Below are positions 27,203 to 44,354 of a stretch of 48,800 bases of DNA, piece by piece (positions within the stretch are counted from its first letter, which is position 1; every line of letters begins with the position of its first letter). Source of the DNA: a virus; IMG/VR virus record IMGVR_UViG_3300033182_000908, positions 1 through 48,800 of that record; one strand, written 5' to 3'. Both the position numbers and the translations under genes were made by a program. The notes beneath the pieces were generated by a model that was given only the letters and a program-made list of their open reading frames with translations, made no database searches and was not told where the DNA came from.

Positions 27203-27205
27203 TAA

Positions 27206-28828
27206 ATGGCTATAAATTACGAACGTAAAAAAAATACAGATACCAAGTTTGGTGGAACTGAAGGTATTACAGTTCCGTCAGGAGATAACAGTGAGCGTAA
27301 CGGAGCAGTTGGCGAAATACGTTACAATTCAGAGCTTGGTTATGCAGAAGTTTACGGTTCTTTAGGTTGGGGCGTATTTGGTGCACCGCCTCCGACTATT
27401 ACTTCCGTAAATCCTACAACATATAACGGTGAAGTTGGAACAACTATTACTATTAATGGCAGTAACTTTGATGCAAGTTCCATAGTATCATTTACTACAC
27501 AAGGAGCAGTAGAAACAAATGCTACAGTTACTACATATGTAAATTCTAACCAATTAACAGCCACAACTCCTCAAGATTATCTAGCAACAGACGGACCATT
27601 GACTATTAAAGTTACACAAAGCAGTGGCGATGCAACGTTAAGTGACGCATTGTCAACTGGTTCGGGGCCTGCCTGGCAAACAGCAGCAGGATCATTAGGT
27701 ATCTTTTATAGTAGCGCAAGTGCAAGTATTACATTATCAGCGACAGACCCAGATGCAGGAGCAACAGTTTCTTATGCTATTACATCAGGTGCATTACCGT
27801 CTGGCGTATCAATGAGCAGTGCTGGCGCAATTACAGGAACGTACCCAAGTGTTGGTTCTAGTACAAACTATAACTTTACCGTAAGAGCTACTGACAATGC
27901 CGGCAACACTTCTGATCGTAGTTTTAGCATAACAGTAAGTCCTGCTTATATGACAGCATCAGGCGGCAATACTATAGGTACTGATGGTGATTATAAATAT
28001 CATATTTTCAACGGTAACGGAACATTTACCGTAAATGCAGTAGGCGGCGATGCAACGTATGGCAATAAGGTTCGTTACTTAATCATCGCAGGCGGTGGCG
28101 GCGGTGGTGGCTTTGGTTCTACCGATAACTTTGGATCTGCCGGAGGCGGTGGTGCAGGTGGCTATTTGACCACTGGCAACGATGATACTTCTGGTTCTTA
28201 CAATGTTACTGTTACTGCAACAGGATATCCGATATCTGTTGGAGGCGGAGGTGCCGGTGGTGTGGGTACAGGACAAGGAAGCAATGGAGGAAACTCTAGT
28301 GCATTTAGTGTAACTGCTACTGGTGGCGGTGGTGGCGGACGCCAAGACTTAGCAGGCAATCCGGGCGGTTCAGGCGGCGGATCAGGAACTGACGGACAAG
28401 GTCGTGACGCAAATAGTTCAGGAACACCTGGACAAGGCAACCCAGGCGGCCGCGGCGCTCCTACCCAAACAGGTATGGGCGGTGGCGGTGGTGGTGCAGG
28501 CGGTGCCGGCCAAACCGGTAACCAAAACAAAACTGGCGGAGTTGGTGGACCAGGCCTAGCATCAAATATCACTGGTACTAGCATATATCGTGCAGGCGGT
28601 GGCGGTGGAGCAAGTTATCCAGGCGGACCGCATCCAAATACGGCGCCACCAAACAGTGCAGGCGGCGGAACTGGAAACACTAGTCCGGAAGGTAACGGAA
28701 CACCTGGAACTGCGAATACAGGCGGTGGCGGTGGAGCCGCTAATGACCAGGACCCGCGTAACTCTCCACAGTTTTTTGGCGGAACTGGCGGTTCGGGTGT
28801 AGTTATCGTTAGGTATAAGTATCAATAA
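27206..28828 (+). CDS. Glycine-rich fibre tip/adhesin B (540 aa)
   Basis: Starting 3 nt after the giant fibre stop, it opens with the fibre motif (TVPSGDNSERNGAVGEIRYN). An IPT/TIG-like Ig domain (~60-150) and a putative Ig domain (~172-247, SATDPDAGATVSYAITSGAL) follow. Residues ~255-540 are glycine-rich with many Pro-Gly pairs (SSGTPGQGNPGGRGAP) and end VVIVRYKYQ, equal in style to 'IVVIRYD' after the glycine-rich part of copy A. There is no cysteine in the glycine-rich part. It is probably the receptor-contacting partner of fibre B. High G+C in the glycine stretch makes several long but spurious frames on the other strand. Confidence 0.82.
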   Translation: MAINYERKKNTDTKFGGTEGITVPSGDNSERNGAVGEIRYNSELGYAEVYGSLGWGVFGAPPPTITSVNPTTYNGEVGTTITINGSNFDASSIVSFTTQGAVETNATVTTYVNSNQLTATTPQDYLATDGPLTIKVTQSSGDATLSDALSTGSGPAWQTAAGSLGIFYSSASASITLSATDPDAGATVSYAITSGALPSGVSMSSAGAITGTYPSVGSSTNYNFTVRATDNAGNTSDRSFSITVSPAYMTASGGNTIGTDGDYKYHIFNGNGTFTVNAVGGDATYGNKVRYLIIAGGGGGGGFGSTDNFGSAGGGGAGGYLTTGNDDTSGSYNVTVTATGYPISVGGGGAGGVGTGQGSNGGNSSAFSVTATGGGGGGRQDLAGNPGGSGGGSGTDGQGRDANSSGTPGQGNPGGRGAPTQTGMGGGGGGAGGAGQTGNQNKTGGVGGPGLASNITGTSIYRAGGGGGASYPGGPHPNTAPPNSAGGGTGNTSPEGNGTPGTANTGGGGGAANDQDPRNSPQFFGGTGGSGVVIVRYKYQ

Positions 28829-28837: not shown

Positions 28838-29293
28838 ATGGCTCATTTTGCAAAATTAAATCATCTAGGTATAGTTATTGATGTTGTTGTTGTCGACAAT
28901 GACGACATGCTTGACGAGACTGGACATGAAAACGAACAAACTGGAATAGAATTTTTAAAAAACTGGTCCGGTGGGCACGAACGTTGGGTACAAACTTCTG
29001 TTAATACTATGAGAAACACACACAGATTTGGTGGGACTCCGTTGCGTTTAAATTATGCAAGCATAGGTGGTACTTATGATAAGGTTAGAGACGCTTTCAT
29101 TGAATGGCGCCCAAATAATCTAGATGTTATCTTAGATGAAGATAATGGAATATGGTTATTTCCACATCATCAAAATGTTCCTCAAGATCCAGAAGACACT
29201 GCCGATACATACCCACAGCCAAACATAGATCCTACATCTTATTACGATTGGGATTCAACAAATTGGACATGGGTTAAGAAGGCTCGTACTTAA
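28838..29293 (+). CDS. Conserved-type hypothetical phage protein (151 aa)
   Basis: AAGGACAG precedes the start. The opening MAHFAKLNHLGIVIDVVVVD, the WVQTSVNTMRN segment and the LRLNYASIGGTYDKVRDAF segment are typical of a small protein that recurs near fibre and structural genes in marine phages. The function of that group is not known to me. The C-terminal third is rich in Asp, Pro and Trp. It closes the cassette B operon; its last 20 nt overlap the oppositely oriented oxygenase gene. Confidence 0.78.
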   Translation: MAHFAKLNHLGIVIDVVVVDNDDMLDETGHENEQTGIEFLKNWSGGHERWVQTSVNTMRNTHRFGGTPLRLNYASIGGTYDKVRDAFIEWRPNNLDVILDEDNGIWLFPHHQNVPQDPEDTADTYPQPNIDPTSYYDWDSTNWTWVKKART

Positions 29294-29849
29294 TAGAAGT
29301 ATAATCATCGATTAATAAATTAAAAGCGATGGAGATTCTTTCTTCATCGCTTTTGTTTGGTTCAACATCATGTTTAACCCATCCAGGAAAGATTAACAAT
29401 AAGTTTGGTTCTGGAATAAACGAATGGTAATTATTTCCATCGTTGTAATATTTCATATCAGGTGCACTTGTTATGTAAGGCCGAGGATCGAATAATCTTA
29501 TTCTTCCGCAATCTTTAGGTGCAGCAACATAAAAAACTCCGCTTAAAAATGTACCTGCATACGGATTATGATCGTGTATATCATTGTATTCATTTTTATT
29601 ATTAATATTAACCCAGTACTCTAAACTTAAATTTATATCAGGTTTATCGTTTCTCGACGGAATGTTGTCTATGATAATTTGTTCTAAAGGTTCGTAATAA
29701 AATCCGTGTCCTTGATATCCACCCCTGTTAGATATAGTTATACCTTTTGTAGATTTTTGAAATTCTTTAACCTTAGTATACATATCATCAATGTCTAAAT
29801 TACAATTTATGCTGTATACACGAGTTGAAAACAAATCTAACGTTGTCAT
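29274..29849 (-). CDS. 2OG/Fe(II) oxygenase-like protein 1 (191 aa)
   Basis: This is the last gene of the ten-gene array. The double-stranded beta-helix signature reads H92-D-H94 followed by AGTFLSGVFYVAA, distal His160 (LIFPGWVKHDVEP) and Arg171 (EERISIAFN), the residue expected to hold 2OG. Where classic enzymes have H-x-D, this one has H-x-H-N, so the carboxylate ligand is not obvious. It most resembles the TIGR02466-type putative 2OG oxygenases. The substrate is unknown. Start and upstream stop overlap as ATGA. The coding of residues 166-176, including Arg171, doubles as a terminator for the opposite strand. Confidence 0.82.
   Translation of the reverse strand: MTTLDLFSTRVYSINCNLDIDDMYTKVKEFQKSTKGITISNRGGYQGHGFYYEPLEQIIIDNIPSRNDKPDINLSLEYWVNINNKNEYNDIHDHNPYAGTFLSGVFYVAAPKDCGRIRLFDPRPYITSAPDMKYYNDGNNYHSFIPEPNLLLIFPGWVKHDVEPNKSDEERISIAFNLLIDDYTSIKYEPS
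29322..29358 (+). terminator. Rho-independent terminator inside the opposing gene
   Basis: A 14-bp stem (29322-29335 with 29341-29354, one G-T pair) closes on TTCTT and ends in TTTTGTTT. It lies 28 nt after the stop of the plus-strand gene at 28838 and would end the cassette B transcript before it runs further antisense to the oxygenase genes. The opposite strand also ends in TTTTAATTT, so weaker termination in the other direction is possible. Confidence 0.8.
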
Positions 29850-30472
29850 AATTTAACTGCCCTGTGTAACGGATCTAACGGATTATTGTTATTGCTTCGA
29901 AATTGTTCCATTCCTTCTTTGGTTATAATATCAATGCCTATTGTATAACGTGAATCGTCCTTTAATTCTTTTACCGAATGAGGAACATAAGAAGGAAAAA
30001 ATGCTATACGACCCATTTTATTTTCTAATTCAAATAATCCATCATTTGCAGAAATATACGGAATATCAAAGTCTGTTGTAGTTTCATTTCTTGTCAATAC
30101 AATGTTCGCGCTTAAATATGAATTTTCATGTATAGCATGATTATGTCTTTTTAAAATCATTCCTTTTTTCTGCGGATACACCCAACCATTGATCCAGAGT
30201 TCTTTCGGTACAGGCAAGTTTAATGCAGATAAAAATTCATCGTGCATCCTACGTACTTCTTGCTTTAGCACAGAAAGTGATACATTAGGCCAAGTAAATA
30301 TATTATACTCTGTCCAATGCATTGGTATTATATCTTCTTCTTTATGTAAAATAGAATTTAGTATCTTATACGTTAAGGTTTCGTCTAGCTCGTCGACCCA
30401 AATAGGTAAATCTAAGACAGGAGCGAATGGTGAATTTGGTTTTAGTGTTTTCCATTGATATAACTTATCCAT
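29846..30472 (-). CDS. 2OG/Fe(II) oxygenase-like protein 2 (208 aa)
   Basis: The core is H110-N-H112-AI-H115-E-N-S followed by YLSANIVL, distal His165 (AFFPSYVPHSV) and Arg175 (DSRYTIGIDI). The metal-binding carboxylate is ambiguous (H115-x-N or Glu116). The N-terminal half (ILHKEEDIIP, RRMHDEFLSALNL) matches that of oxygenase 4 (ILTREKDIIS, RYMHDQFVEGLGF), so these two form a subfamily. The start overlaps the upstream stop (TAATG). The substrate is unknown. Confidence 0.8.
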   Translation of the reverse strand: MDKLYQWKTLKPNSPFAPVLDLPIWVDELDETLTYKILNSILHKEEDIIPMHWTEYNIFTWPNVSLSVLKQEVRRMHDEFLSALNLPVPKELWINGWVYPQKKGMILKRHNHAIHENSYLSANIVLTRNETTTDFDIPYISANDGLFELENKMGRIAFFPSYVPHSVKELKDDSRYTIGIDIITKEGMEQFRSNNNNPLDPLHRAVKL

Positions 30473-31056
30473 TATGATATCCTAAAATTAATATTAAATG
30501 AGATGATAATCTTATCTTCACCCGGCGGCTGTTTTGGAGTTCCGTGCTGTAAGTTGCTTTTCCACATTAATAATCTTCCAGGTATACACTCATATGCGGT
30601 AAATGTATAACTTAATTGGGTAGGATATTCCGGAACCATAGACATATCACTATGATCATAAAAAATAATCTTAGAACCTTTAGGAGCCTGAATATAAAAC
30701 ACGCCCGACAGAAAACTGTTCTGGTGTATATGCGATTCAAGAAAGTCGCCTTCTTTACTAATGTTTGCCCACATATTAGTTACACATAACTTGTCTATGG
30801 TATCATCTGTATATCCAAATTCTACAGCAAATTGCTTTGCTTTGTCTAATATTTTTACTGTCAGGTCATTAAACATCGGGTCTAAGTGCATACGATTATC
30901 AGTTAAGTGTGTGCTGTTAACTTCAAAGATTTCTTGCCTAATGCTGCCTGCTTTTTCGACCCACAAAGTTACATTAGATGCAATAGTTTGTAAAGAATCT
31001 TTTTCAAAATCCTCACACACAAGTATTGATTTTGGAAACCAGGATTCTATCTTCAT
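30472..31056 (-). CDS. 2OG/Fe(II) oxygenase-like protein 3 (194 aa)
   Basis: The signature is H109-I-H111-Q-N-S-FLSGVFYIQAP, distal His171 (SNLQHGTPK) and, at the 2OG-binding place, Lys182 (EDKIIISFN) instead of Arg. It belongs with oxygenases 1, 6 and 12 (the SGVFY / TIGR02466-like group). Lys in this place is tolerated in some 2OG enzymes, so activity is possible. It overlaps both neighbours by 1-4 nt, so it is co-translated. Confidence 0.82.
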   Translation of the reverse strand: MKIESWFPKSILVCEDFEKDSLQTIASNVTLWVEKAGSIRQEIFEVNSTHLTDNRMHLDPMFNDLTVKILDKAKQFAVEFGYTDDTIDKLCVTNMWANISKEGDFLESHIHQNSFLSGVFYIQAPKGSKIIFYDHSDMSMVPEYPTQLSYTFTAYECIPGRLLMWKSNLQHGTPKQPPGEDKIIISFNINFRIS

Positions 31057-31706
31057 AACTTAATCCAATGTTCCTTCTTGTTTACAAATATATCTTCATC
31101 AAAGACAATTTGAGGAATAATATCAAATGCTATTGTAATTCGTTCATTATTGCCTTGATGAACGTCAGTATAATGCTCTATCCAGTTTGGAAATAATGTT
31201 AACTTTCCTGGAATGTTTTCTGACGCATAAGGTTCGTTTGTATATGGATTAACATAATTTGTATGTGTGTTTGATTGTTGTACACATACATGGCCTCCTA
31301 GATATGTATAAGGACTTTTCCAATGCTGATGTAATTTAATTTGTTCACCTTTGCGCATTACGTTTGCCCAGCACTGAGCATAGATATTACCATCAGTAGT
31401 AAATCCTAAACCTTCAACAAATTGATCGTGCATATATCTTATTGCATTTTTTAACTGTTGTGCCTCAGACCAAAATAATAAATTATAAGAGTCTGAACGA
31501 GATGTTATGCTAGTGCTACCTAAACCAGTACCCCAATCAGAAGTATAATTGTAGCGAGAAATAATATCCTTTTCTCGTGTCAATATGACATCTTTCAATT
31601 CATCTAAATCTACCATAGAAGAAATATCCGCCTCAAAAATTGAATAGTTCCATTGCGGCGCAAAGATTGTTTTTGGTAGATCATTTACAAAATTTAAAAT
31701 ATTCAT
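31053..31706 (-). CDS. 2OG/Fe(II) oxygenase-like protein 4 (217 aa)
   Basis: The longest of the array apart from number 10. The signature is H126-Q-H128 (EQIKLHQHWKSPYTYLGGHV), distal His178 (LFPNWIEHYTDVH) and Arg189 (NERITIAFDI). It pairs with oxygenase 2 through its N-terminal half. The position normally holding Asp/Glu is His or Trp, so the metal site may be of a two-histidine kind. The substrate is not known. Confidence 0.8.
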   Translation of the reverse strand: MNILNFVNDLPKTIFAPQWNYSIFEADISSMVDLDELKDVILTREKDIISRYNYTSDWGTGLGSTSITSRSDSYNLLFWSEAQQLKNAIRYMHDQFVEGLGFTTDGNIYAQCWANVMRKGEQIKLHQHWKSPYTYLGGHVCVQQSNTHTNYVNPYTNEPYASENIPGKLTLFPNWIEHYTDVHQGNNERITIAFDIIPQIVFDEDIFVNKKEHWIKL

Positions 31707-31707
31707 A

Positions 31708-32205
31708 TCAAAAATAATTAAAGTTAACTGTTATCCTGTATTTTTGATCACTACATGTAGTACTATGATGAGGTATTTGAGGATCAAATAATAACACTCT
31801 ATTTTCTATAGATTCTACTTCTATCTTATTATCTAAAACTGTCACTCCGTTATTTGTATTAACGAATAACAATGCTGCCTTATGATTAAAATCGTAGTCC
31901 TTATGATCTCTATGGTGTACAACTTCTGATGTTGATGGATATAAGTTGCCCTTTATCCTAATAAGAGATTTACATTCAACCATAGTTAAAAATTGTTCAA
32001 ACATCAAAAAGTTATCTGACCTTACTCTATGATCAGCATAGAATAGATGTGTAAAATAATAATCTTTTGGATTTGTTACTAAATCGTCCTCTGAAGATAT
32101 AAAATTATTAAGATACCACGCCAAATTTTGGCTCTCCATGATTCCATATTGAATCATTTTAAAATCATCTTCTGGTAAAAAATTATCTATTATTTCGTAG
32201 TTCAT
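31708..32205 (-). CDS. 2OG/Fe(II) oxygenase-like protein 5 (165 aa)
   Basis: The shortest member, with a canonical-looking H98-R-D100 (EVVHHRDHKDYDF), distal His146/147 (QIPHHSTTCSD) and Arg157 (KYRITVNFNYF). The opening YEIIDNFLPEDDF is typical of phage 2OG oxygenases of the prolyl-hydroxylase-like fold. It has all residues expected of an active enzyme. It is 1 nt from the upstream gene and overlaps the downstream message layout as one operon. Confidence 0.83.
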   Translation of the reverse strand: MNYEIIDNFLPEDDFKMIQYGIMESQNLAWYLNNFISSEDDLVTNPKDYYFTHLFYADHRVRSDNFLMFEQFLTMVECKSLIRIKGNLYPSTSEVVHHRDHKDYDFNHKAALLFVNTNNGVTVLDNKIEVESIENRVLLFDPQIPHHSTTCSDQKYRITVNFNYF

Positions 32206-32768
32206 TTGCGTTCTCTAACTTTGGTATCTATGGCAATAGATATACGATCTTCATTGCTATTGTTTTTGTTGACAAAGTGCCACAGCCACGATGGAAATAT
32301 TACTAACTTCCCTGGTTCAGGATCAACCCACCATGTAGGCGACAAGTATTTGTTATATGTATCTATCATTTTATGATTAACCACAGGCAACATCTGGTTA
32401 ACTGGTGTTAAAAATTCTAGTCTACCTGATTCTTCTCCTTCTCCCGTTACAAAATATACGCACGAAAAAAATGATTCTGGATGACAATGCGGGGCAACAA
32501 TGTCTTTAGTACAATTTAAATTTGCCCAATACCTCCATATGTATTGTTCCCATTTAGTAGATAACCCTATGTGTGCATGAACAGCATTTACTCGATTAAT
32601 GACTTTGGACAGTAAAGGTTGTAGTTCGTCCGCACTAAGGTCTAGACTTCCGGTATTGGTATTGTCACCTTTTGTTATATGCCGCAAGCAATAATCTTTA
32701 ATAGACGTGTTATCTAAATCAAGATTATCGAAAACTAAAAATGATGTAAATATTTCCTCAATTTGCAT
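32202..32768 (-). CDS. 2OG/Fe(II) oxygenase-like protein 6 (188 aa)
   Basis: The signature is H94-C-H96-P-E-S-FFSCVYFVTG, distal His164 (IFPSWLWHFVNK) and Arg175 (EDRISIAIDTK). It belongs to the SGVFY/TIGR02466-like group with 1, 3 and 12. Glu98 lies two residues after the second His, so H96-x-E98 could supply the usual carboxylate. The substrate is unknown. Confidence 0.83.
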   Translation of the reverse strand: MQIEEIFTSFLVFDNLDLDNTSIKDYCLRHITKGDNTNTGSLDLSADELQPLLSKVINRVNAVHAHIGLSTKWEQYIWRYWANLNCTKDIVAPHCHPESFFSCVYFVTGEGEESGRLEFLTPVNQMLPVVNHKMIDTYNKYLSPTWWVDPEPGKLVIFPSWLWHFVNKNNSNEDRISIAIDTKVRERK

Positions 32769-33313
32769 TAAAGATCTAACTCCTCAGCAGGTTTAGTACC
32801 GTACCACATAGATAAGGTATACCGTGAACCTTTAACAACGTCCATAACACAATGATTTTCTGTCTTGCCTTTAAAATAAACAGTCCTACCTACTAGCGGT
32901 TCAACAGTCACGCCGTTAATAACTGTTTGTCCCCCAACAAAATCGTCATTTAAATATGTAATTGAACTAGCAGTTGTTGTATCTCTAGCAACATCAAAGT
33001 GAAAGGGTTTTGAAACTCCTTGCGGGTACTCTGTTAAATCTATGTAATGAATGTATTGATAATCGGGATCGTGTGCTACTGCTTGTTTTACTACATCTGC
33101 AAGAGCAAGAATAGCACGATAGTCTTTTCCAGAAAGGTGCCCAGGAATTTGATAATATTCAGCCTCGCCTTTATCGTTAAGTCTTTCCTTGCCATCCTTG
33201 ACTCTTAAAATATTTGTACCGTGCCATTGGTCAAGTTGAGGTGCCGACTTAAAAAGATTTAAAATAAAATCAATGTAGGTTTGATGTACAACGGTGTTGC
33301 TTATATAAATCAT
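32768..33313 (-). CDS. Prolyl-4-hydroxylase-like 2OG oxygenase 7 (181 aa)
   Basis: This is a canonical enzyme layout: H105-F-D107 (SKPFHFDVARD), a SSITYLNDDFVGGQTVI strand typical of the prolyl 4-hydroxylase alpha-subunit-like family, distal His154 (KTENHCVMDV) and Arg164 (SRYTLSMWYG). Of the array, this and number 8 are the best candidates for protein (prolyl) hydroxylation, by family resemblance only. Confidence 0.88.
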   Translation of the reverse strand: MIYISNTVVHQTYIDFILNLFKSAPQLDQWHGTNILRVKDGKERLNDKGEAEYYQIPGHLSGKDYRAILALADVVKQAVAHDPDYQYIHYIDLTEYPQGVSKPFHFDVARDTTTASSITYLNDDFVGGQTVINGVTVEPLVGRTVYFKGKTENHCVMDVVKGSRYTLSMWYGTKPAEELDL

Positions 33314-33891
33314 TTAAATGGTTTTCCTAACGCCCACATCACCAAAGTATACCTTGTACCAAATGTAACCGGATGTACTCTATGATATAAAAACGATGGA
33401 AACACTACTATAGATCCTTGAGGTCTTAATTCAGGGGCTAGTTTAGTATCTGTCAGTCTTCCTAGATCAAATTCTAATTCTCCACCGCCAAATGTATCTG
33501 GATCACTTAAATGCAATATAGTGGTCAACTTTCTATACATTCCATCAAAGTTACCATTGGTGTAAGTTTTTGCATTTTGATCTGAATGCCAATGATAATA
33601 TTGACCGGGCTTGTATATAGTAAATTGCATCTCTTCGCACCATTCCCAATCAAAGTTCCATTCAGCACGTTGATTTGCTTCGTCCATTCGTGCTTGCATT
33701 ATTTCATATAGCCATTTATCATTCATCCAAGTAACTTCTGAATTCCTCCATTGCTTTACCTTGTCTGGATCTTTTTCTCCGTGTATGGCTCCTGTATTTG
33801 CTTCTTTTTGTAGACCCATTTCAATAATGCTTTCGCAGGTTTCCTTAGGTACCTCTGATTGAAAATACCAATAACTATGTGTTAAAATCAT
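33310..33891 (-). CDS. PKHD/PiuC-type 2OG oxygenase 8 (193 aa)
   Basis: Canonical H102-S-D104 (GQYYHWHSDQNAK), a LTTILHLSDPDTFGGGELEF strand pair, distal His170 (VFPSFLYHRVHPVT) and Arg180 (TRYTLVMWALG). The 'FPS..HRV.PVT.G.R' stretch is the hallmark of the PKHD-hydroxylase branch of the prolyl-4-hydroxylase family, common in marine T4-like phages. The substrate is unknown. Confidence 0.9.
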   Translation of the reverse strand: MILTHSYWYFQSEVPKETCESIIEMGLQKEANTGAIHGEKDPDKVKQWRNSEVTWMNDKWLYEIMQARMDEANQRAEWNFDWEWCEEMQFTIYKPGQYYHWHSDQNAKTYTNGNFDGMYRKLTTILHLSDPDTFGGGELEFDLGRLTDTKLAPELRPQGSIVVFPSFLYHRVHPVTFGTRYTLVMWALGKPFK

Positions 33892-34469
33892 TCTTCGTTC
33901 TCCATGTCATAAGAGTACCAACCTGTAGTTATATATTTTGTTTGTGTATTTGATACAACTCCTCTATGGAGATGTGTCCAGTCAACCGGCCATATGACCG
34001 TTAACCCTTTTTTTGGACTGATTGATAAGTTCTGATGCAACCATTCTGTCTGTCCAGCATCAGTGACGTCATTAAGGTACGTCATGAATACTAGATGTCG
34101 TGTCGCTGGAATAAGCGATGGTCCAGAACGTTCACAATGCCATGACTTAAACCCTTGTCCGGGCAAATATCGTTGTATATTAAAGTTTTGAGTAATGCTC
34201 CACTTTGCTTGATTCAGTGATGACCAAGGATATCTTTCTATGTATTTGTTACAAACAAATTTGACATATGACAAATATTCTTGTATTATAGGGTCTGGAT
34301 CTCTAGGATTTACTACAACATCTGTAGAATCTTTTTGAGAAGTGTCTACTCGTATAGGTCCGCCAACCTTCCCTGCATTCTTATGCGGAGATTCTTCAAA
34401 ATAGTTAATCATCTTATCACATATTTGATGATCAATTTCTAACCCAAATATAAACGGTGCATATTCCAT
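33888..34469 (-). CDS. 2OG/Fe(II) oxygenase 9, HxE type (193 aa)
   Basis: The signature is H111-C-E113 (GFKSWHCERSG), LVFMTYLNDVTDAGQTEW, distal His168 (PVDWTHLHRGVV) and Lys178 (QTKYITTGWYS) at the 2OG place. The 'WTH.HRG' and 'TGWY' patterns mark a known phage oxygenase subgroup distinct from its neighbours. Asp/Glu exchange in the triad is accepted in this superfamily. It overlaps both neighbours (ATGA and TAATG). Confidence 0.86.
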   Translation of the reverse strand: MEYAPFIFGLEIDHQICDKMINYFEESPHKNAGKVGGPIRVDTSQKDSTDVVVNPRDPDPIIQEYLSYVKFVCNKYIERYPWSSLNQAKWSITQNFNIQRYLPGQGFKSWHCERSGPSLIPATRHLVFMTYLNDVTDAGQTEWLHQNLSISPKKGLTVIWPVDWTHLHRGVVSNTQTKYITTGWYSYDMENEE

Positions 34470-35116
34470 TAATTTAATCCTGATGCTACCCCGAGCAAAT
34501 CCCTTCCATCAAACAGTTCTTCTTTGTATCTGCCATTTGCATCAGTGAAATGTAAAAACATCTGAGCATGGTTAATACCTTTAAAAGCATCTCGCCAATG
34601 GCTTAAATCACAACCCCTATACACCAACATGTCTCCGGGGTTAAGTATTACAGATACTTCGTCGTCACTTCTAAATTTTCTAAGATTAATAGGCCAACTA
34701 TAATTACCTGCAAGATTACTGATATCATACCCTAAACATATAGTCGATGATATTTCGCAACTTGGTCGATCGGTATGCTTATGCAATTCTGCATTTGTGT
34801 AATATAACCTCCAATAACTGTAATTTGGCAATAATGTTTTTCCAGTAAAGGACTCCATATCAGGTAACATCATTTCAAGTATAGAATCACCTAAAGGATC
34901 TCCATAGTACGCAAATGAATGTTCACCAAACGAATCGCCAAATTTTCCGTCCCACTCCTTGTCATATTTGTCAGGACTTTTTTCCATCTTATAACGAGTA
35001 GCCTCTGAATGCATTATGAAATATCTATACAATATTGTACACATCTCCTGACTTAAAAATTCACGTATCACAACATAACGCTCTTTTTCAAAATGTTTTT
35101 GGATGTCTTTAACCAT
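34469..35116 (-). CDS. 2OG/Fe(II) oxygenase 10, first gene of the array (215 aa)
   Basis: The start is set at 35116 (MVKDIQKHFEKERYVVIREF) because AGGA lies 7 nt before it; an in-frame ATG at 35140 has no ribosome site. Triad: H114-T-D116 (ELHKHTDRPSCEI), a CLGYDI strand, and distal His173 (DLSHWRDAF). The usual Arg is not clear (HAQMFLHFTD instead). The YVVIREFLSQEMC opening is typical of a phage oxygenase group. As the promoter-proximal gene it would be transcribed first; no late-promoter motif is visible on this strand in the 97-nt gap to 35214. Confidence 0.86.
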   Translation of the reverse strand: MVKDIQKHFEKERYVVIREFLSQEMCTILYRYFIMHSEATRYKMEKSPDKYDKEWDGKFGDSFGEHSFAYYGDPLGDSILEMMLPDMESFTGKTLLPNYSYWRLYYTNAELHKHTDRPSCEISSTICLGYDISNLAGNYSWPINLRKFRSDDEVSVILNPGDMLVYRGCDLSHWRDAFKGINHAQMFLHFTDANGRYKEELFDGRDLLGVASGLN

Positions 35117-35187
35117 TCTATTTCCTATTATCTTATACATACATAATTATCAAAGAAATACAAGATTTTTTTAGATTCTGATATTGG

Positions 35188-35195
35188 ATAAATAC
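35188..35195 (+). promoter_or_regulatory. T4-type late promoter motif ATAAATAC
   Basis: ATAAATAC lies in the divergent gap between the oxygenase array and cassette C, 19 nt before the small cassette gene, with AGGAG after it. It faces only the fibre side. Confidence 0.7.
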
Positions 35196-35213
35196 TAACA
35201 ACAGGAGTATTCT

Positions 35214-35453
35214 ATGGCAAAAATCCGTAAAATAGCATATGGTACTGGAAGTTATTCTAGTACGGGCTTTCATGGTTTCAATGTAGATTCTGAAGGTAAT
35301 CTTGTTTACACAAAAGCCACAAATGGTGATATAGATGTACAAGATGGCGACCAGGTTGAACAATATGTTATGTACGAAGTAGGTGTTGCCGGTTCTACTT
35401 ACAAGATTGACACTGATGGTGAGTTAGTGATAGAATACGAAACAGAAGAATAA
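35214..35453 (+). CDS. Small fibre-cassette protein C (79 aa)
   Basis: The core TGFHGFNVDSEGNLVYTK and the close YKIDTDGELVIEY match the small genes of copies A and B. An acidic tail follows. The ribosome site is AGGAG about 7 nt before ATG. Its stop codon is part of the next promoter motif (35450-35457). It is probably a partner or assembly factor of the giant fibre that follows; the family is not named. Confidence 0.76.
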   Translation: MAKIRKIAYGTGSYSSTGFHGFNVDSEGNLVYTKATNGDIDVQDGDQVEQYVMYEVGVAGSTYKIDTDGELVIEYETEE

Positions 35454-35457
35454 ATAC
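35450..35457 (+). promoter_or_regulatory. T4-type late promoter motif ATAAATAC
   Basis: The octamer contains the TAA stop of the small gene and lies 24 nt before the giant fibre start. Together with 35188 it gives cassette C two nested late-type starts. Confidence 0.6.
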
Positions 35458-35480
35458 ACTATAAGAATGTAGGATAAAAA

Positions 35481-38400
35481 ATGGCCATTAGTACTATATC
35501 ACTTGGTAAAGTTAAATTCAATTGGAAGGGCGATTGGGCTACTTCCACAGCATATGTGAAGGACGACGTAGTAAAATACGGTCCGAACGTTTACACTTGC
35601 TTAACAGCACACACTTCACAAGGAACCTTTGCGCCTGATATTGCTAAATGGGATTTAATGGTTGCTGGTTTGGAAAATGCTGGCGTCTGGGGTAGCGGAA
35701 CACTTTACCAACTCGGACAGACAGTAACATATGGTGGTGCTGTTTATATTGCAATACAAGAATCAACAAATCAAAATCCGTACACAGAAACAGCATACTG
35801 GCAGCGTTTTGTAGATGGTCAACAGTTTGAAGGTGAATTTAATCCTGCAACTAATTATCAGAAAGGTGATATTATCACATACGGTGGTTATTCGTATGTA
35901 GCAAAACAAAATACTCTTAGTAATAATCCAACCAATACAACGTACTGGGACATTTATATCAAAGGTTTTAACTTGTCAGGCGATTATAATGCAGCAGTAC
36001 AATATAAACCCGGTGATGTTGTAATATATGGCGGAAACAGATATATTGTTAATGAAGGAGAGCGTCCGCTAGGTGTTCTTCCTACGGTAACTGCAAGTTA
36101 TACATTATTAGTTTCAGGATTTAATTATTCAGGTACTTGGAACTCTGCAACAGAATACCAACCAGGTGATGTTGTACGCTATGGCGGTAGAGTATATGTT
36201 GCATCATCTACCAGCACAAATAGTAAACCATCAGTAGGTCTTAATTTTGGTTTATTAGCCGACGGCTTTACTTGGAGAGGCGTTTGGTCTTCAAGCACGG
36301 CATATGCTGTAGGCGAGATTGTTAGATTTGGCGGAAAGACTTATCTTTGCACAGCAGACACTAGCGGAAATGCTCCAGATGTAAATGGTTCGTTTACATT
36401 ATTTGCCGATGGCATACAATGGGCAGGTGTTTATTCAGATAGTTCAAGTTATCTAAAAGGCGACGTTGTAAGATTCAGCGGTAGATCATTTATTTGTATC
36501 GAATCGTATGACAACGACGGATCGACAACTCCTGAACCGCCAAACTCAGATTTCTGGGAATTATTTGTTGACGGTATGTCGTGGAAAGGCGTATGGTCAA
36601 ACGGAACACAATATGAATATGGTGATGTTGTTGAATACAGTCAAAGTTCATATATCTGTGTAGGCAATGATGTTACGGGAGTAACTCCTGGCACCGATCC
36701 TGCAAGTTGGAATTTAGTTGCGCAAGGCGATATTAGCTCACCGATGACTACTACAGGTGACATCATTTATCGTAATGCAAGCGGTAACGTAGATCGTTTA
36801 GGTATCGGAGATGATGGTTCATTCTTGATCGTTAATAATGGTATACCTAGTTGGGGTCATAGAACGCCACAGAACGATTACTATGTATCATTAGATGGTG
36901 ATGATGCAAACGATGGACGTACTCCTACATCGTCATTTAGAACAATTAAACATGCTGCAGAAGTAACTTACAATTTAGGACAATGCCGTATTAACGTACA
37001 TGCAGGTACGTATGAAGAACAGTGTCCTATTAAGATCGGCCGCAGCGTAGTTGTAGAAGGTAATGGTCTTGGAGCAGTTACTATATCTCCAGACACTACA
37101 AATGATAACGGATTTGGTGTAGGTATTTCAGACGACGGTTCCACTCCAAATGCAAACTCGTACATATTCTTAATGAATAACGCTGCAAGATTGCGTAACT
37201 TTGTATTCCGTAACTTCTCAACTGGCTCAGTTTGTGTATCACTTGATCCAGGTTCAGGACCTGATGATACATCAGTATGGATCACATCACAGTCACCTTA
37301 TGTACAAAACTGTACTTCGTTTACCCCAGGTGGTACTGGTATGAAGGTCGATGGTGCACTGCATAACGGTGGTTATAAGTCTATCGTTAACAATGACTTT
37401 ACACAAATCAACTCGGATGGTATCGGTGTACACTGTTTAAATGATGGTAGAACTGAAATCGTTTCTTGTTTTACATATTACTGTAACATTGGCTATTTGG
37501 CAGAAAGTGGTGCTAAGATACGTGGTATCGTTGGTAATAACTCATACGGCGAGTACGGATGTGTTGCCCGTGGTTATTCTGCTGCTGAGGATCCATTGAC
37601 TGGTAAACTAAGACTAAATGATGCTACAATCGAATCAGTAATACAACTAGGTTCAAGCGTCCATGCATATACTTCATATAGAGATAGTGTCGGTAATAGA
37701 TTCTTTGTAGGCCATACAAACCCAACAGGTACCGATATATCTAGTACTTGGAATAACGCTGCATCAGAACCATTTATTGCAAAGTATAATTCAGCAGGTT
37801 CGCTTGATTGGATATATACCTACACAGGATTATACGGTTCTATACATAGTGCCGTTGAATTAAGTGATAGAATTTATGCATGTGGTTGTGTATACGATGG
37901 CGGTGCAAATAAAGGTTTCATCCTTTCGATATCAAAAGCAGGTGAAATCCAATGGCAAAAGACAATTGGCAATACCACAGAAATCGTTGATGTTACAACA
38001 GACGGTGATTACTTGTATGCAGTTGGTACCCATAGTACAGCCGGAATATCTCTTATTAAATTAAACCCGGCAGGTGTAGAACAGTTCTCAAGAACTTTAG
38101 AATATAACGACAGTTCGGCAACAGGTACACTTGCACCTACTAGTTGTTGTTTTGCAGATAGTCCAACTTCGTCTATCGATACATATGCATTGGCAGGCGA
38201 TGCTACCGCAGAAGATAATATCTTTATTGCAGCATATGATAGCACAGTTAATGAAGGTTTAATTATTAGAGTTAACAAACTAGGCGGCTTCGAACAAGCA
38301 TATCAATATGGCGATGTTAGAATTAACGCACTTAACATTGACTTAGGTAATGGCGATGGCATTTACTTAATGGCAGCAGGTTATTACAATCCTACCCCAG

Positions 38401-40826
38401 GCACTAATAATCCTCTAGCATTTAGAGTAGCGGTAGACGGTTCAGTGCAGTGGCAAAATCAACTTGCATTATCTAGTGAAGAAGGTGAGTGGAGAGATGT
38501 ATTACCATTTGGTAACGACATTTATCTTGTAGGTTACTTAAACGAAAGTTCAAATAACAATAACACAGCAATAGTATCACGTTATACATCTAGCGGCGTT
38601 GAATCTTGGACTTGGAAGTTTGATAACGGTACAAATAACATAGCATTGACGGGTGTGATGATTGACGGTGTTAACGTAATTGCAGCAGGTATTGAACAAG
38701 GCAATGCTGTTATCCTAAACGTACAAAGAGACACACTCAATGAAATAGGTACTGTTACTTCTGGTTCGTATGCATATGCATCGCTGAGTGGCGAAACATG
38801 GACTACAAATACAGTAGCATCACAAGAAATTAATGCTGTTGACATCAACACAGTTACGCTAGGTAGTTCAGATACTGCGTTAACATTAAATCAAACACCT
38901 AGCCAAACTGCTACAGTTGCAGCAACTAGAAATGGTTTCTTAGGTATCGGTGTTGGCGTACAATTTACCATAGACTCATTGAATCGTGTTCCTAAGGATG
39001 GTTCTATACTACAAATTGATGGCGATTCAGAAACCTACTTTGTGATTGGTGTTGCAAACTATGTAGCACCTAGTTACACAACTGGTAATAATCCAAATGC
39101 ACAAAATATTTTAACACAAAACAGAACCTTCTTACAGGAAGAAGTTATTGCATACGTTAATTCTGCATTTCCAGGTTTAGTGTATAATGAAGCATTGTGT
39201 TACCGAGATGTTGGATTAATTGTTGATGCACTTATAACAGATTTAGATCATAACTCAAATGGCGAATCAATTGATGCAGCATATAGTTACTGGAATAATG
39301 CAAGTGGACTAGTTGCTATTACTACACAAAAGGCAGAAACCGTTGCAGCCATTGGTTACTTAAAATCAATTGTAGATGATGTATTAAACCAATCACCGTT
39401 AGGAGCACCATATTCGGGTGCAACACAGATTACAGGGTTAACTGCTACAGAAGCAGGCAGTGTTACTCTTACTGAAAATAATGTACAAGCAATCTATGAT
39501 ACACTTAACAGCGGATTAAGTGGTGGTCCTGCTAAGATTAACTACGGTACGTGTTCAATATCTGTTGACCCAGCAATTCCAAGTAACAAAACACCAAACG
39601 ATATTACAAGGGTAACATTCCGTGAGGCGTTCTCGCAGGTACGCATGAGCGGACACGACTTCCTAGATATAGGTACTGGTGGCTTTGCTGACACAAACTA
39701 TCCAGTCATTATCAGCTCAGACTATACACAAGCACCAAGTCAGGATAGAGAAGTATTAAGCGAAAACGGCGGTCGTGTGTTCTACGTAACCACTGACCAA
39801 GATGGTAACTTCCGAGTAGGTGATTACTTCAGAGTTGAGCAAGCCACAGGTAGAGCAACTCTTTCATCTGAAGAGTTTGACTTGGCTGGTTTGAATGAGT
39901 TACAGTTGGGTAGTATTACAGCAGGTAAGCAAGGTGCTACGATCAATGAATTCTCAACAGATGGTACGTTTGCTGACAACTCAGATACTGCTGTGCCAAC
40001 TGAGAAAGCAACAAAGACATACGTTGATGGACAAATTGCAATCCTAAGTGCAACCCAAGGAACTATTGTTGCAGGTACTGCACCTAGCCAATCAAAAGTA
40101 GAAGTTACTGGATCTGGTGCAAATACAGATACCATTGATTTTGATATTAATGGTGTAGAAGTATTCCAAGTTGACAATTCAGGATTTACCGCTACACCAG
40201 GCGGTACGCAAATACTAGATGTTGATTCTAGCACAGGATTACAATTATCACAAAGCGGCTCAATTATATTTGAAGCAGATGCTAGTGACTTAACTTATAA
40301 ATCTGGTAGCAATACAGTATTCAATGTTGATAACACAAGTTTACAAGTGTCGCCAGGAGGCACATTAAAGTTTGAAGCAGCAGCACAATATGTACTAGTG
40401 CCAAAAGGAGCAACTGCTGATAGACCAACTGGCCCTGCACTAGCAGAAGGTCAATTTAGATACAATACAGATACTTCAACATTTGAAGGTTATGATGGAA
40501 CACAATGGAGCGGAATTGGAGGAGGCAATCCTTGGATGACCAAGGACTGGAACGACTCACCATTTACTGCGTCAAACAATGATAGAATTTTTGTTAACAC
40601 CTCAGGTGGAGCAGTAACCATTAACTTACCAGCAACTCCAAACGTAGGTGATCAAGTTAAGTTTGTTGACTTAGCAGGAACGTTTAACGGAAACAATTTA
40701 ACAGTAGGAAGAAACGGCGAAGAGATTATGAATAATGCAGGTGACATGGTCGTAGATGAAAACAACTCAGCATTTACGTTAATATATTCAGGCGCAACAT
40801 ATGGTTGGGTACTAGGAGAGAATTAA
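35481..40826 (+). CDS. Giant multidomain tail fibre C (1781 aa)
   Basis: It has eight CBM5/12-like repeats at ~1-420 (e.g. YQKGDIITYGGYSYVAKQN), the DYYVSLDGDDANDGRTP beta-helix-like region, the propeller-like stretch, the helical stretch, the GGRVFYVTTDQDGNFRVGDY module and a terminal domain ending YGWVLGEN. It is longer than A mainly because of an extra ~80-residue segment near 1550-1630 with three internal strand repeats (FTATPGGTQILDVD, LQLSQSGSIIFEAD, LQVSPGGTLKFEA). Patches of near-identical DNA with fibre A point to recombination between the copies. It probably binds host surface glycan. Confidence 0.87.
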   Translation: MAISTISLGKVKFNWKGDWATSTAYVKDDVVKYGPNVYTCLTAHTSQGTFAPDIAKWDLMVAGLENAGVWGSGTLYQLGQTVTYGGAVYIAIQESTNQNPYTETAYWQRFVDGQQFEGEFNPATNYQKGDIITYGGYSYVAKQNTLSNNPTNTTYWDIYIKGFNLSGDYNAAVQYKPGDVVIYGGNRYIVNEGERPLGVLPTVTASYTLLVSGFNYSGTWNSATEYQPGDVVRYGGRVYVASSTSTNSKPSVGLNFGLLADGFTWRGVWSSSTAYAVGEIVRFGGKTYLCTADTSGNAPDVNGSFTLFADGIQWAGVYSDSSSYLKGDVVRFSGRSFICIESYDNDGSTTPEPPNSDFWELFVDGMSWKGVWSNGTQYEYGDVVEYSQSSYICVGNDVTGVTPGTDPASWNLVAQGDISSPMTTTGDIIYRNASGNVDRLGIGDDGSFLIVNNGIPSWGHRTPQNDYYVSLDGDDANDGRTPTSSFRTIKHAAEVTYNLGQCRINVHAGTYEEQCPIKIGRSVVVEGNGLGAVTISPDTTNDNGFGVGISDDGSTPNANSYIFLMNNAARLRNFVFRNFSTGSVCVSLDPGSGPDDTSVWITSQSPYVQNCTSFTPGGTGMKVDGALHNGGYKSIVNNDFTQINSDGIGVHCLNDGRTEIVSCFTYYCNIGYLAESGAKIRGIVGNNSYGEYGCVARGYSAAEDPLTGKLRLNDATIESVIQLGSSVHAYTSYRDSVGNRFFVGHTNPTGTDISSTWNNAASEPFIAKYNSAGSLDWIYTYTGLYGSIHSAVELSDRIYACGCVYDGGANKGFILSISKAGEIQWQKTIGNTTEIVDVTTDGDYLYAVGTHSTAGISLIKLNPAGVEQFSRTLEYNDSSATGTLAPTSCCFADSPTSSIDTYALAGDATAEDNIFIAAYDSTVNEGLIIRVNKLGGFEQAYQYGDVRINALNIDLGNGDGIYLMAAGYYNPTPGTNNPLAFRVAVDGSVQWQNQLALSSEEGEWRDVLPFGNDIYLVGYLNESSNNNNTAIVSRYTSSGVESWTWKFDNGTNNIALTGVMIDGVNVIAAGIEQGNAVILNVQRDTLNEIGTVTSGSYAYASLSGETWTTNTVASQEINAVDINTVTLGSSDTALTLNQTPSQTATVAATRNGFLGIGVGVQFTIDSLNRVPKDGSILQIDGDSETYFVIGVANYVAPSYTTGNNPNAQNILTQNRTFLQEEVIAYVNSAFPGLVYNEALCYRDVGLIVDALITDLDHNSNGESIDAAYSYWNNASGLVAITTQKAETVAAIGYLKSIVDDVLNQSPLGAPYSGATQITGLTATEAGSVTLTENNVQAIYDTLNSGLSGGPAKINYGTCSISVDPAIPSNKTPNDITRVTFREAFSQVRMSGHDFLDIGTGGFADTNYPVIISSDYTQAPSQDREVLSENGGRVFYVTTDQDGNFRVGDYFRVEQATGRATLSSEEFDLAGLNELQLGSITAGKQGATINEFSTDGTFADNSDTAVPTEKATKTYVDGQIAILSATQGTIVAGTAPSQSKVEVTGSGANTDTIDFDINGVEVFQVDNSGFTATPGGTQILDVDSSTGLQLSQSGSIIFEADASDLTYKSGSNTVFNVDNTSLQVSPGGTLKFEAAAQYVLVPKGATADRPTGPALAEGQFRYNTDTSTFEGYDGTQWSGIGGGNPWMTKDWNDSPFTASNNDRIFVNTSGGAVTINLPATPNVGDQVKFVDLAGTFNGNNLTVGRNGEEIMNNAGDMVVDENNSAFTLIYSGATYGWVLGEN

Positions 40827-42472
40827 TGGCAAATAGTAATAGAAGAGATTTTACTAAGAAAAATCCAAACTTTACAGGTGTCGAAGGTGCAATAGTACCG
40901 TCAGGCACTACACTAGAAAGACCGTCGCAGGCTACACTCGGTACTGTAAGATATAACAGCGACCTAGGACTTGCAGAATTTTACACATCTACTGGTTGGG
41001 CAGCAGTTGCTCCACCGCCAAGTGTTTCTTCAATTTCTGGTATAATCAATGAAGATACAGACACTACAATCACTATTACAGGTTCGGGTTTTGATTCAGG
41101 AGCAGTAGTTTCTATCGAAGGTGCCGGTGTAAGCAATGTATCACGTAATTTAACAACAACATATGTAAGTTCAAGCGAATTAACTGCTGCAACAAATGCA
41201 GCAAGTGTTAACTACATAGGTGGAGCATCATTTAACGTTACAGTAACAAATACTACAGGTTTAACATCAACACTGACACCAGCAGGAACAGTAGACCGAG
41301 ACCCGGTGTGGAGCACCGGTTCAGGTAGTTTAGGTACATATTATGATACTCAACGTTCAGGGATAAGCATATCATTAAGTGCAAGCGATCCAGATGGAGG
41401 ATCAGTAACTTATAGCGTGGCATCAGGAAGTCTCCCATCAGGCCTATTATTGAATGGTAGTACGGGAGAAATTACCGGCAATGCCAATGCTGTAGGGAGC
41501 GACACAACATCATCTTTTACTATACGAGCAACAGGTGATAATAGCCAAAGCGAAGATAGATCATTTACCATTACCATTAAAGCACCAGTAGTAACAACAT
41601 TTACAGCACAAGTAGGAACGTATTCAGCACAAACTTGGTCTAAGCCATTGGGTATTACACAATTTAGCGCATACCTATGGGGTGCAGCAGGCGGTTGCGG
41701 TGCAAATGCACCTAATAGTATTTCAGGTGCAGGCGGGTATGCAGAAGTAACTGTTACTGCTCCGAGTGCTGCAACTAACTTTGGTGTGTTTGTTGGACAG
41801 GGTGGATTTTATTCTGACCAAAATGGTGGTGGTGGTGGATACACTGGATTGTTTGTAGGAACATCTGAATCCGCAAGTAACTGTCTTGCTATTGCCGGTG
41901 GTGGCGGTGGTATGGGCACATATCAAGTAAACATAAACGGTGGAGGATCAACCACGCCCAATAACTCATATTCATACGGTGCAACCCAGAGCACCGGCGG
42001 AGCCCAACCATCATGTGGCGGGTCATGTTCGACTGACGGTTCATGGCCGTTTGGCTCGCCAACATTTGTAGGATTACAATTCCGAGGCGGTTGGGGTTGT
42101 GGTGGTAACATCCGCGGCAATGGTGGTTGGCCGGGCGGTGGACACGCCGGCGGTGGTAATGGTTGTAATGGAGCAGCCGGCGGCGGCGGTTGGTACGGTG
42201 GCGGTGGCGCCGGCGACCGTGGTGCTAACGGAGGTACCGGTAATGGTGGTTCAGGTTATGTTGCAGGGCAGACATCTGGAAGTGCAACAGTAAGTACTTG
42301 TACAGTTACTTCAGGATCGACAACACGTAGCGGAACAGATGGAACACCACCAAATACAGGAAGTTCGTACTATGCAAATGGTGTAGGTTACGGTTGTAAC
42401 AGAAGCGGCGCCCACGGTACATATGCTGGTACTGATCGAGCCGGACCTGGACGTCTTGTTATTATTTACTAA
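40826..42472 (+). CDS. Glycine- and cysteine-rich fibre tip/adhesin C (548 aa)
   Basis: ATG 40826 overlaps the giant fibre stop (TAATG); an upstream in-frame TTG at 40805 is unlikely. The N-terminus has the fibre motif (IVPSGTTLERPSQATLGTVR). An IPT/TIG-like domain (~64-150) and a putative Ig domain (~178-250) follow. Residues ~258-548 form a glycine-rich domain of a different type from A and B: it opens TWSKPLGITQFSAYLWGAAG and carries eight Cys (GGCG, SNCLA, SCGGSC, GCGG, GCNG, STCTV, GCNR). This resembles the 'Gly_rich' domains of phage and animal receptor proteins. It ends RLVIIY, as 'VVIRY' ends in the others. It is probably the receptor-contacting partner of fibre C. Confidence 0.83.
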   Translation: MANSNRRDFTKKNPNFTGVEGAIVPSGTTLERPSQATLGTVRYNSDLGLAEFYTSTGWAAVAPPPSVSSISGIINEDTDTTITITGSGFDSGAVVSIEGAGVSNVSRNLTTTYVSSSELTAATNAASVNYIGGASFNVTVTNTTGLTSTLTPAGTVDRDPVWSTGSGSLGTYYDTQRSGISISLSASDPDGGSVTYSVASGSLPSGLLLNGSTGEITGNANAVGSDTTSSFTIRATGDNSQSEDRSFTITIKAPVVTTFTAQVGTYSAQTWSKPLGITQFSAYLWGAAGGCGANAPNSISGAGGYAEVTVTAPSAATNFGVFVGQGGFYSDQNGGGGGYTGLFVGTSESASNCLAIAGGGGGMGTYQVNINGGGSTTPNNSYSYGATQSTGGAQPSCGGSCSTDGSWPFGSPTFVGLQFRGGWGCGGNIRGNGGWPGGGHAGGGNGCNGAAGGGGWYGGGGAGDRGANGGTGNGGSGYVAGQTSGSATVSTCTVTSGSTTRSGTDGTPPNTGSSYYANGVGYGCNRSGAHGTYAGTDRAGPGRLVIIY

Positions 42473-43211
42473 TTCCATATAGGTTATTCTCTATTTGAGA
42501 ATAACCGTTTTTAGAAAGCAAATCTAAGATTTCATTTGTGGTGCTATTGTATAACGATAATTTATCGTTAAACGGATTAACATAGATATAAGGAGCATTC
42601 TTTTTTATAGTTTCTGCGGCCCCAAGCAACACCCGTAACTCAAATCCGTTTACATCAATATAAATTAAATCTACATCAGTAAACCCAAAATGATCTAACC
42701 TATGCTGTTTTGTTAATGTGTATTCTACTTCACTGCCCATTTTTTCTGTTCCTAGCGCAGGAGTAGATATGCAGGATTGCGCATAATCTCCTAGGTCATC
42801 AATCGTTTCAATGCAATACTTGTCACTATCAGTAATGGCATAATGATACGGGTTTATGGTTATATTATTATTGTTATGCCATGCGTTTTCTGCATTTGCC
42901 TTAAGCAGTTTAACTGATCTTGGATTGCAATCAAATGATTCTACAACTTCTGATATCTTGCTTAATTCTACGGTAGTTTTCCCCACCATTGCACCTATGT
43001 CAATAGTTCTCCGTAACGATTTATCCTTAAAAAAATCTAAATGTAGTATCTGAGAATTTAAGTATTTGACCATATTTGCATCGCTGTTTGGAACCCAATA
43101 GCATTCTTCGTCATCAGTTTGTAAAAGTTTATAATTTAAATTATCAAAGAGTTGACTACCTTCTTCAACATCATATAATTCTTCAAAATCTTTTGGAGTT
43201 AAAAATCTCAT
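42462..43211 (-). CDS. FkbM-type SAM-dependent methyltransferase (249 aa)
   Basis: The start is placed at 43211 (MRFLTPKDFEEL) because GAGGAATA precedes it and it abuts the upstream stop; a longer frame reaching 43265 would overlap that gene by 53 nt. SAM-binding motif I is TIDIGAMVGKTT (71-77), an acidic residue follows at Asp95 (ESFDCNP), and LIYIDVNGFELRVLLGA (182-198) matches the FkbM signature, with Asn188 where Glu is usual. FkbM enzymes O-methylate sugars or small molecules. A role in modifying phage or host glycans is possible. Its last codons form the opposing terminator at 42482. Confidence 0.85.
   Translation of the reverse strand: MRFLTPKDFEELYDVEEGSQLFDNLNYKLLQTDDEECYWVPNSDANMVKYLNSQILHLDFFKDKSLRRTIDIGAMVGKTTVELSKISEVVESFDCNPRSVKLLKANAENAWHNNNNITINPYHYAITDSDKYCIETIDDLGDYAQSCISTPALGTEKMGSEVEYTLTKQHRLDHFGFTDVDLIYIDVNGFELRVLLGAAETIKKNAPYIYVNPFNDKLSLYNSTTNEILDLLSKNGYSQIENNLYGISK
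42482..42512 (+). terminator. Rho-independent terminator inside the opposing gene
   Basis: A perfect 10-bp stem, GGTTATTCTC (42482-42491) with GAGAATAACC (42497-42506), closes on TATTT and is followed by GTTTTT. It lies 10 nt after the cassette C stop and ends the plus-strand operon. The same bases code the last residues (NGYSQIENNLYG) of the minus-strand methyltransferase. No T-run follows on the minus strand, so it acts in one direction. Confidence 0.88.
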
Positions 43212-43212
43212 A

Positions 43213-43770: not shown

Positions 43771-43944
43771 TTAACCCCAACTACTCTTACCCCATTTTCC
43801 GACAGGACAAGATACACTTTCTAGTTTTGTTTTTAATGGCATCACACAGTTACATAATTTACATGTTTTAGTAGTCTTGCGCAAATGCTCGCATTGTTTA
43901 CAAAGATCGTATCGTCTTTTTTGTTCTTCGCTAGATACAAACAT
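43771..43944 (-). CDS. 57-aa zinc-ribbon-like protein
   Basis: This short gene starts at ATG 43944, overlapping the stop of the thioredoxin-like gene (TAATG), and ends 3 nt before the next ATG. Its cysteines are spaced C15-x2-C18, C28-x2-C31-x-C33 and C46 (YDLCKQCEHLRKTTKTC, then KLCNCVMPLKTKLESVSCP, GKW). That is the pattern of small phage zinc ribbons ending 'CP-GKW'. It is basic and may bind nucleic acid or a protein partner. Reading frame, overlaps and cysteine pattern all support it as a real gene. Confidence 0.82.
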   Translation of the reverse strand: MFVSSEEQKRRYDLCKQCEHLRKTTKTCKLCNCVMPLKTKLESVSCPVGKWGKSSWG

Positions 43945-44321: not shown

Positions 44322-44354
44322 AATACCTCCGGTATAATTAGTTATCAATTAAAT

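Follow-up and report, generated by a model that had tools for sequence, protein, structure and literature searches.

Linkage of 2OG-Fe(II) oxygenase arrays to glycine-rich receptor-binding fibre tips in marine phages, and their possible role in tip hydroxylation

Genes for 2OG-Fe(II) oxygenases led by a predicted protein prolyl hydroxylase, here termed ox8, are tightly linked to genes for glycine-rich fibre tips in marine phages of two unrelated groups. This genomic link is far stronger than a first reading based on Pro-Gly pairs could show; it is, as far as we know, new, and it is testable. Tentatively, and with somewhat less than even confidence, we propose that in two unrelated marine phage lineages a dedicated prolyl-hydroxylase operon hydroxylates the phages' own glycine-rich receptor-binding tips and in this way tunes host binding.

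The oxygenase array and fibre cassettes of the window

The window, the whole 48.8 kb stretch of a virus record that was analysed, is, judged by its genes, part of the genome of a marine T4-like myovirus. Its right end matches a tail sheath family, and its closest DNA matches are Synechococcus, Prochlorococcus and Pelagibacter phages. Three fibre cassettes, each made up of a long shaft and a glycine-rich tip, lie on the plus strand (A, 10436–18209; B, 22079–28828; C, 35481–42472), with a subtilase (Peptidase_S8) gene at 20111–21670 between A and B. Between B and C, ten consecutive minus-strand ORFs, separated by gaps of −4 to +1 bp, occupy positions 29274–35140. All ten have 2OG-Fe(II) oxygenase family matches in Pfam and/or PHROGs, which bears out the preliminary description of an oxygenase array flanked by two fibre cassettes. 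Two outlying oxygenases, ox11 and ox12, are also identified by family matches. The oxygenases are numbered from left to right along the window, and the relevant features are as follows.

22079–27202, plus strand: fibre B shaft, CBM_5_12 repeats
27206–28828, plus strand: tip protein B, TIG, He_PIG and Gly_rich_2 (PF21722), amino acids 248–540 (27947–28825); proposed substrate
28838–29293, plus strand: phrog_7759 protein, MAHFA start; between tip and array in relatives
29274–29849, minus strand: ox1, 2OG-FeII_Oxy_5 / TIGR02466 / phrog_81
29846–30472, minus strand: ox2, phrog_81 type oxygenase
30472–31056, minus strand: ox3, 2OG-FeII_Oxy_5 / TIGR02466
31053–31706, minus strand: ox4, phrog_81; about 50% identity to array members of S-SM1 and S-RSM4
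31708–32205, minus strand: ox5, phrog_274 (labelled 'DNA endonuclease V'); HxD..H..R invariant in 5 relatives
32202–32768, minus strand: ox6, 2OG-FeII_Oxy_5 / TIGR02466
32768–33313, minus strand: ox7, 2OG-FeII_Oxy_3 / phrog_2297; weak match to prolyl 3-hydroxylase 1
33310–33891, minus strand: ox8, predicted protein prolyl hydroxylase fold; lead enzyme of tip-linked operons
33888–34469, minus strand: ox9, P4H-like by profile
34469–35140, minus strand: ox10, phrog_2954 ('ferrochelatase' in PHROGs); weak match to a Tet-like dioxygenase
35214–35453, plus strand: small protein heading cassette C
35481–40826, plus strand: fibre C shaft
40823–42472, plus strand: tip protein C, He_PIG and a glycine-rich end; Gly domain without match to array-linked tips
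43213–43767, minus strand: ox11, outlying, phrog_81 type oxygenase
44355–44996, plus strand: ox12, outlying, TIGR02466 / phrog_81 type oxygenase

The labels 'DNA endonuclease V' (31708–32205), 'DNA endonuclease' (32768–33313) and 'ferrochelatase' (34469–35140) look wrong, because the proteins that bear them carry the 2OG oxygenase signature or sit in oxygenase arrays; all three PHROG/GenBank labels are widespread in cyanophage annotation. A defence-system library returned nothing beyond generic '2OG' CRISPR-associated labels. An FkbM-type methyltransferase gene (42462–43265, minus strand) shares 11 bp with the end of the tip C gene, and the outlying oxygenases adjoin a gene (43944–44348) whose small product has a thioredoxin-like CPYC motif and no PHROG match.

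Linkage of oxygenases to glycine-rich tips in relatives

Sequence comparison shows that in S-RSM4 and S-SM1 the array is headed by a homologue of tip B and not of tip A or C. The glycine-rich domain of tip B shares 51–57% identity over approximately 300–350 residues with tips located directly upstream of arrays in S-RSM4, S-SM1 and several IMG/VR contigs; for tips A and C, no Gly-domain match to array-linked tips was found. The phrog_7759 protein is a homologue of the product of the gene that lies between tip and oxygenases in relatives, and is possibly a chaperone or partner of the tip. Many relatives encode a further protein of 167–190 amino acids between the phrog_7759 gene and ox8 (L033:2328–2879, L017:17549–18052 and L043:295–849); it has no clear family match and, by eye, resembles an oxygenase that lacks its histidines. 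Three or four tandem glycine-rich tip genes precede a single oxygenase operon in loci L047, L221 and L345.

Among named phages, the arrays of S-RSM4, S-SM1, Mosig and HTVC008M (all Kyanoviridae) are placed between fibre and neck genes or adjoin fibre genes, and those of S-RSM4 and S-SM1 have the common order ox9-ox8-ox7-ox5. A trio of ox8, an ox4-like gene and ox10 is found among tail genes in two Pelagibacter phages that are not T4-like, HTVC023P and HTVC033P, as well as in 023Pt_psg01; ox10 is the usual final gene of the operon in relatives.

The linkage was quantified in approximately 230 IMG/VR loci retrieved with ox8, ox9 and ox10 profiles, with phoH loci serving as the control. In a first count, which scored a fibre-like ORF within 1.5 kb of the oxygenase run across all array loci, 89 of 136 loci had such an ORF upstream, always co-oriented with the run, and 15 of 127 had one downstream; the phoH control gave 0 of 65 and 0 of 70. 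A second count, made for each enzyme with a 2 kb limit and a slightly different Gly-rich threshold, found a co-oriented glycine-rich tip upstream in 53 of 54 ox8 loci and a tip downstream in 0 of 31, these loci being drawn from the best 80 ox8 profile matches and not all independent of one another. The corresponding upstream values were 20 of 55 for ox9 and 14 of 36 for ox10, which places the link with ox8 and its close relatives. In ox9 loci that lack ox8, a tip was present in just 5 of 36, and ox9 was rejected as the tip-linked enzyme.

The association was also seen from the tip side. A tip-profile search yielded 31 new loci, in 20 of which co-oriented oxygenases lie downstream, a proportion that becomes 20 of 23 where at least 1.6 kb of sequence follows the last tip; the profile, itself derived from tips linked to arrays, is biased in favour of tips of that kind. 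The closest ox8 proteins occur in seven complete genomes, T4-like and not, where the nearest PF21722 match lies 0.2–3.4 kb from ox8, and the chance probabilities of these distances have a product of 1.2e-9 if the genomes are taken as independent. A control scan with an S-CAM1 oxygenase gave nine loci, too few for use.

In the window itself, the array lies on the strand opposite to tip B and forms an inverted block relative to the tip-co-oriented arrays of relatives. The same layout occurs in the SAR11 phage HTVC008M, in which the glycine-rich gp65 and gp66, with its MAHFA start, are followed by a minus-strand array. The idea that the array is an invertible segment was rejected, the longest inverted match between the array ends being 10 bp, which is at chance level. 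The motif ATAAATA, which resembles T4-type late promoters, is rarer than chance across the whole window; on the plus strand it occurs just 5′ of fibre-side genes, at positions 65, 3134, 10389, 21673, 35188 and 35450, and these sites are possible late promoters. No ATAAATA was found on the minus strand near the start of the array. The opposite orientation of the array, together with this absence, counts against a tip module in the window.

Folds, catalytic residues and tip composition

The AlphaFold2 model of ox8 (pLDDT 94, from an alignment of 43 sequences) has its best structural matches in PHD2 (Z 19.7), the Pseudomonas putida P4H with EF-Tu (4iw3; Z 19.6) and the PBCV-1 vCPH (5c5t; Z 18.6), all of which are enzymes that hydroxylate prolines in proteins. 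From this model, ox8 is predicted to have the protein prolyl hydroxylase fold of the PHD / P4H type, and residues H102, D104, H170 and R180 are invariant in its alignment. The preliminary description had likened two array members to prolyl hydroxylases; the fold supports this for ox8, and for ox7 (32768–33313) the likeness is confined to a weak match to prolyl 3-hydroxylase 1 (E 0.002). The neighbouring ox9, which had gone unnamed, appears P4H-like by sequence profile, matching the Bacillus anthracis P4H at approximately 2e-9 and vCPH at 4e-8, with H111, E113, H168 and K178 invariant.

The 2OG-Fe(II) oxygenase signature (HxD/E...H plus a basic, 2OG-binding residue) is invariant in alignments of ox5, ox8 and ox9, and nearly so in ox10, where H122, D124 and H181 are conserved at 90% or more. 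Although ox5 matches PHROG 274, with its DNA endonuclease V label, it shows the HxD..H..R pattern. In the TIGR02466-type members ox1, ox3, ox4, ox6 and ox12, HxH takes the place of the HxD/E of the usual triad; the metal site of these enzymes may be of a different kind, and their chemistry is less certain as a result.

The glycine-rich domain of tip B, modelled with a pLDDT of 85.5 and a pTM of 0.87, has the Pam3 fibre (7ypx; Z 15.9) as its closest structural match, followed by the tail tip of Bxb1 (Z 14.1) and then the glycine-rich domain of ALK / LTK (Z approximately 7). The model, in which the Gly_rich_2 domain (PF21722) carries the stacked glycine-rich loops of a Pam3-type tip, identifies it as a predicted receptor-binding Gly-rich fold of the Pam3/Bxb1 kind; the likeness comes from the fold, a sequence search of the PDB with tip B having given no significant match. 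The glycine-rich domain of the Pam3 fibre has been proposed to recognize the host receptor (PMC9608196).

Tip B had been described as full of Pro-Gly pairs, and this description does not stand. Its glycine-rich part contains 6 PG pairs against 5.4 expected from shuffled sequences, 47% of which reach 6. In 95 array-linked tips, PG occurs 549 times against 658 expected (0.83) and GP 315 times against 660 expected (0.48). Pro-Gly pairs are not enriched, there is no collagen-like repeat, and neither tip B nor the 95 tips have the X-Pro-Gly-rich composition of a collagen-type P4H substrate. The tips contain few Lys and Arg residues. Among non-glycine residues, proline accounts for approximately 10% in array-linked tips and for a smaller share in tips that have no array, a weak excess (P = 0.001 in the first split and 0.04 after reclassification) measured against a comparison set of unlinked tips that is small and consists in part of misclassified or truncated operons. 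Because several of the tips called 'unlinked' are situated at the ends of contigs, the comparison is sensitive to class calls; proline enrichment was accordingly set aside as proof of a substrate, being weak and dependent on which tips count as unlinked.

Proposed function and alternatives

The gene order and co-orientation in relatives, the homology of tip B, the conserved catalytic residues and the predicted folds of ox8 and the tip are the observations to be explained. On a reading that we hold at about even confidence, tip B, the phrog_7759 protein and the oxygenase array would form a single functional module in which ox8, probably with ox7, ox9 and ox10, hydroxylates the glycine-rich receptor-binding tip during or before fibre assembly. 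The linkage is observed; linkage and fold together point to the tip as the likely substrate. The best candidate residues would be prolines in the loops between glycine runs, candidates in tip B by inspection being those in YPGGPHP, DQDPRNSP and GTPGQGNPGG. Their hydroxylation would stabilize the tip loops or change what the loops bind, and the diverged paralogues among the other nine enzymes would act on other residues or other fibre parts. What holds of the earlier suggestion of a fibre-modifying system is the association of oxygenases with a tip, strongly supported by conserved gene order in two unrelated phage groups, and the likeness of ox8 to protein prolyl hydroxylases in its predicted fold; the Pro-Gly reason given for it does not hold.

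Several observations weigh on the other side. Ten enzymes are many for one substrate, and the family has other settings: ox8 paralogues of approximately 30% identity adjoin uvsW in many cyanophages, ox9 occurs alone, Melnitz has glycine-rich fibre genes with its ox8 relative approximately 16 kb away, and related arrays also lie behind 600-residue proteins that are not glycine-rich (phrog_27227). This second array type, seen in loci L182, L197, L200, L208, L237, L239, L241, L243 and L246, consists of an ox1/ox11/ox12-like gene, a diverged ox8, one or two more genes and ox10, downstream of phrog_27227 proteins with GQVWYN and WSTGGNLNTGR repeats. In several loci it lies just upstream of a virion structural protein gene, with a sulfotransferase gene ahead.

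The strongest alternative is modification of the host receptor or surface (a glycan, lipid or outer-membrane protein), for example in superinfection control, where it would block a second infection, or in freeing progeny from debris. Enzymes that modify a receptor would be carried along with the tip that binds this receptor, so the same linkage is expected, and the specificity of the linkage for the receptor-binding part of the fibre is in keeping with this explanation, as are the sulfotransferase and FkbM methyltransferase genes near arrays and the arrays behind a second, unrelated fibre-like protein. It is nevertheless improbable, given that the nearest structures to ox8 are protein prolyl hydroxylases and not glycan or lipid enzymes, and that the order tip, phrog_7759, ox8 is tight, as with an assembly partner.

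An action inside the host cell is similarly unlikely: here the oxygenases would hydroxylate proteins of the host, such as EF-Tu or those of the ribosome, or change 2OG or nitrogen signalling, and their position beside fibre genes would be a convenient late-operon site. Such targets would fit the presence of the P. putida P4H bound to EF-Tu among the best fold matches, the paralogues elsewhere in the genome and the 2OG / NtcA and DNA repair roles proposed for cyanophage oxygenases (PMC3037559), but they leave unexplained the linkage to one tip fold in 53 of 54 loci from the best 80 ox8 matches, the 20 of 23 loci found from the tip side, and the recurrence in T4-like and non-T4-like phages.

Under hitchhiking, recombination would be concentrated in a hot spot at the fibre genes, and oxygenases would be swapped along with the tip without acting on it; this would account for the strong variation in number of both fibre and oxygenase genes and for the inversion of the array as a block in the window and HTVC008M. 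A hot spot would gather mixed cargo in both orientations, however, whereas the same family is co-oriented in all 53 linked loci from the best 80 ox8 matches, and we regard this explanation as quite improbable. DNA or nucleotide chemistry, suggested by the names 'DNA endonuclease V' and 'ferrochelatase' and by the weak match of ox10 to a Tet-like dioxygenase (E 0.002), is very improbable, as the sequence pattern of ox5 is that of the 2OG oxygenase triad and not of an endonuclease, and the linkage is to fibre genes and not to replication genes.

Several known systems resemble parts of the proposed tip-hydroxylation module. The viral protein-prolyl-hydroxylase type is represented by vCPH of the chlorovirus PBCV-1, which shares the ox8 fold; ox8 differs in being phage-encoded and in lying beside a fibre protein that is glycine-rich and not collagen-like. 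Mimivirus L230, a lysyl hydroxylase / glucosyltransferase, may hydroxylate the virus's own collagen-like surface proteins, but there the virus is a giant virus of amoebae, the residue lysine and the target collagen repeats. The P. putida prolyl-4-hydroxylase that acts on EF-Tu and the PiuC / PKHD hydroxylases share fold and sequence profile with ox8 but are cellular enzymes, and we know of no linkage of these to fibre genes. On the tip side, the cyanophage Pam3 fibre (gp24) and the tail tip of Bxb1 have the same fold; the word 'hydroxyl' is absent from the text of the Pam3 fibre paper (PMC9608196).

Multiple 2OG-Fe(II) oxygenases are already known in cyanophages, and those of T4-like cyanophages (T4-GC 104, 240, 412 and 611; PHROG 61 and 81) belong to the same families as the array of the window. 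DNA repair and 2OG signalling have been proposed for them (PMC3037559, PMC9146016), and a 2026 report likens phage PHROG 61 proteins to human EGLN3 without giving a substrate (PMC12774648); the passages of these papers on the enzymes deal with repair, signalling or a benefit to marine phages in general, and none of them names fibre tips as a target. No report of phage fibre hydroxylation was found in the open-access literature. For the many oxygenases of cyanophages and SAR11 phages, for which DNA repair and 2OG signalling have been put forward, the tight, directional link of one subfamily to the receptor-binding tip offers a concrete and testable candidate substrate. If the proposal is true, it would describe an unreported route by which phages tune host binding, and hydroxylation would add a new layer to the biology of host range in phages that are among the commonest in the ocean.
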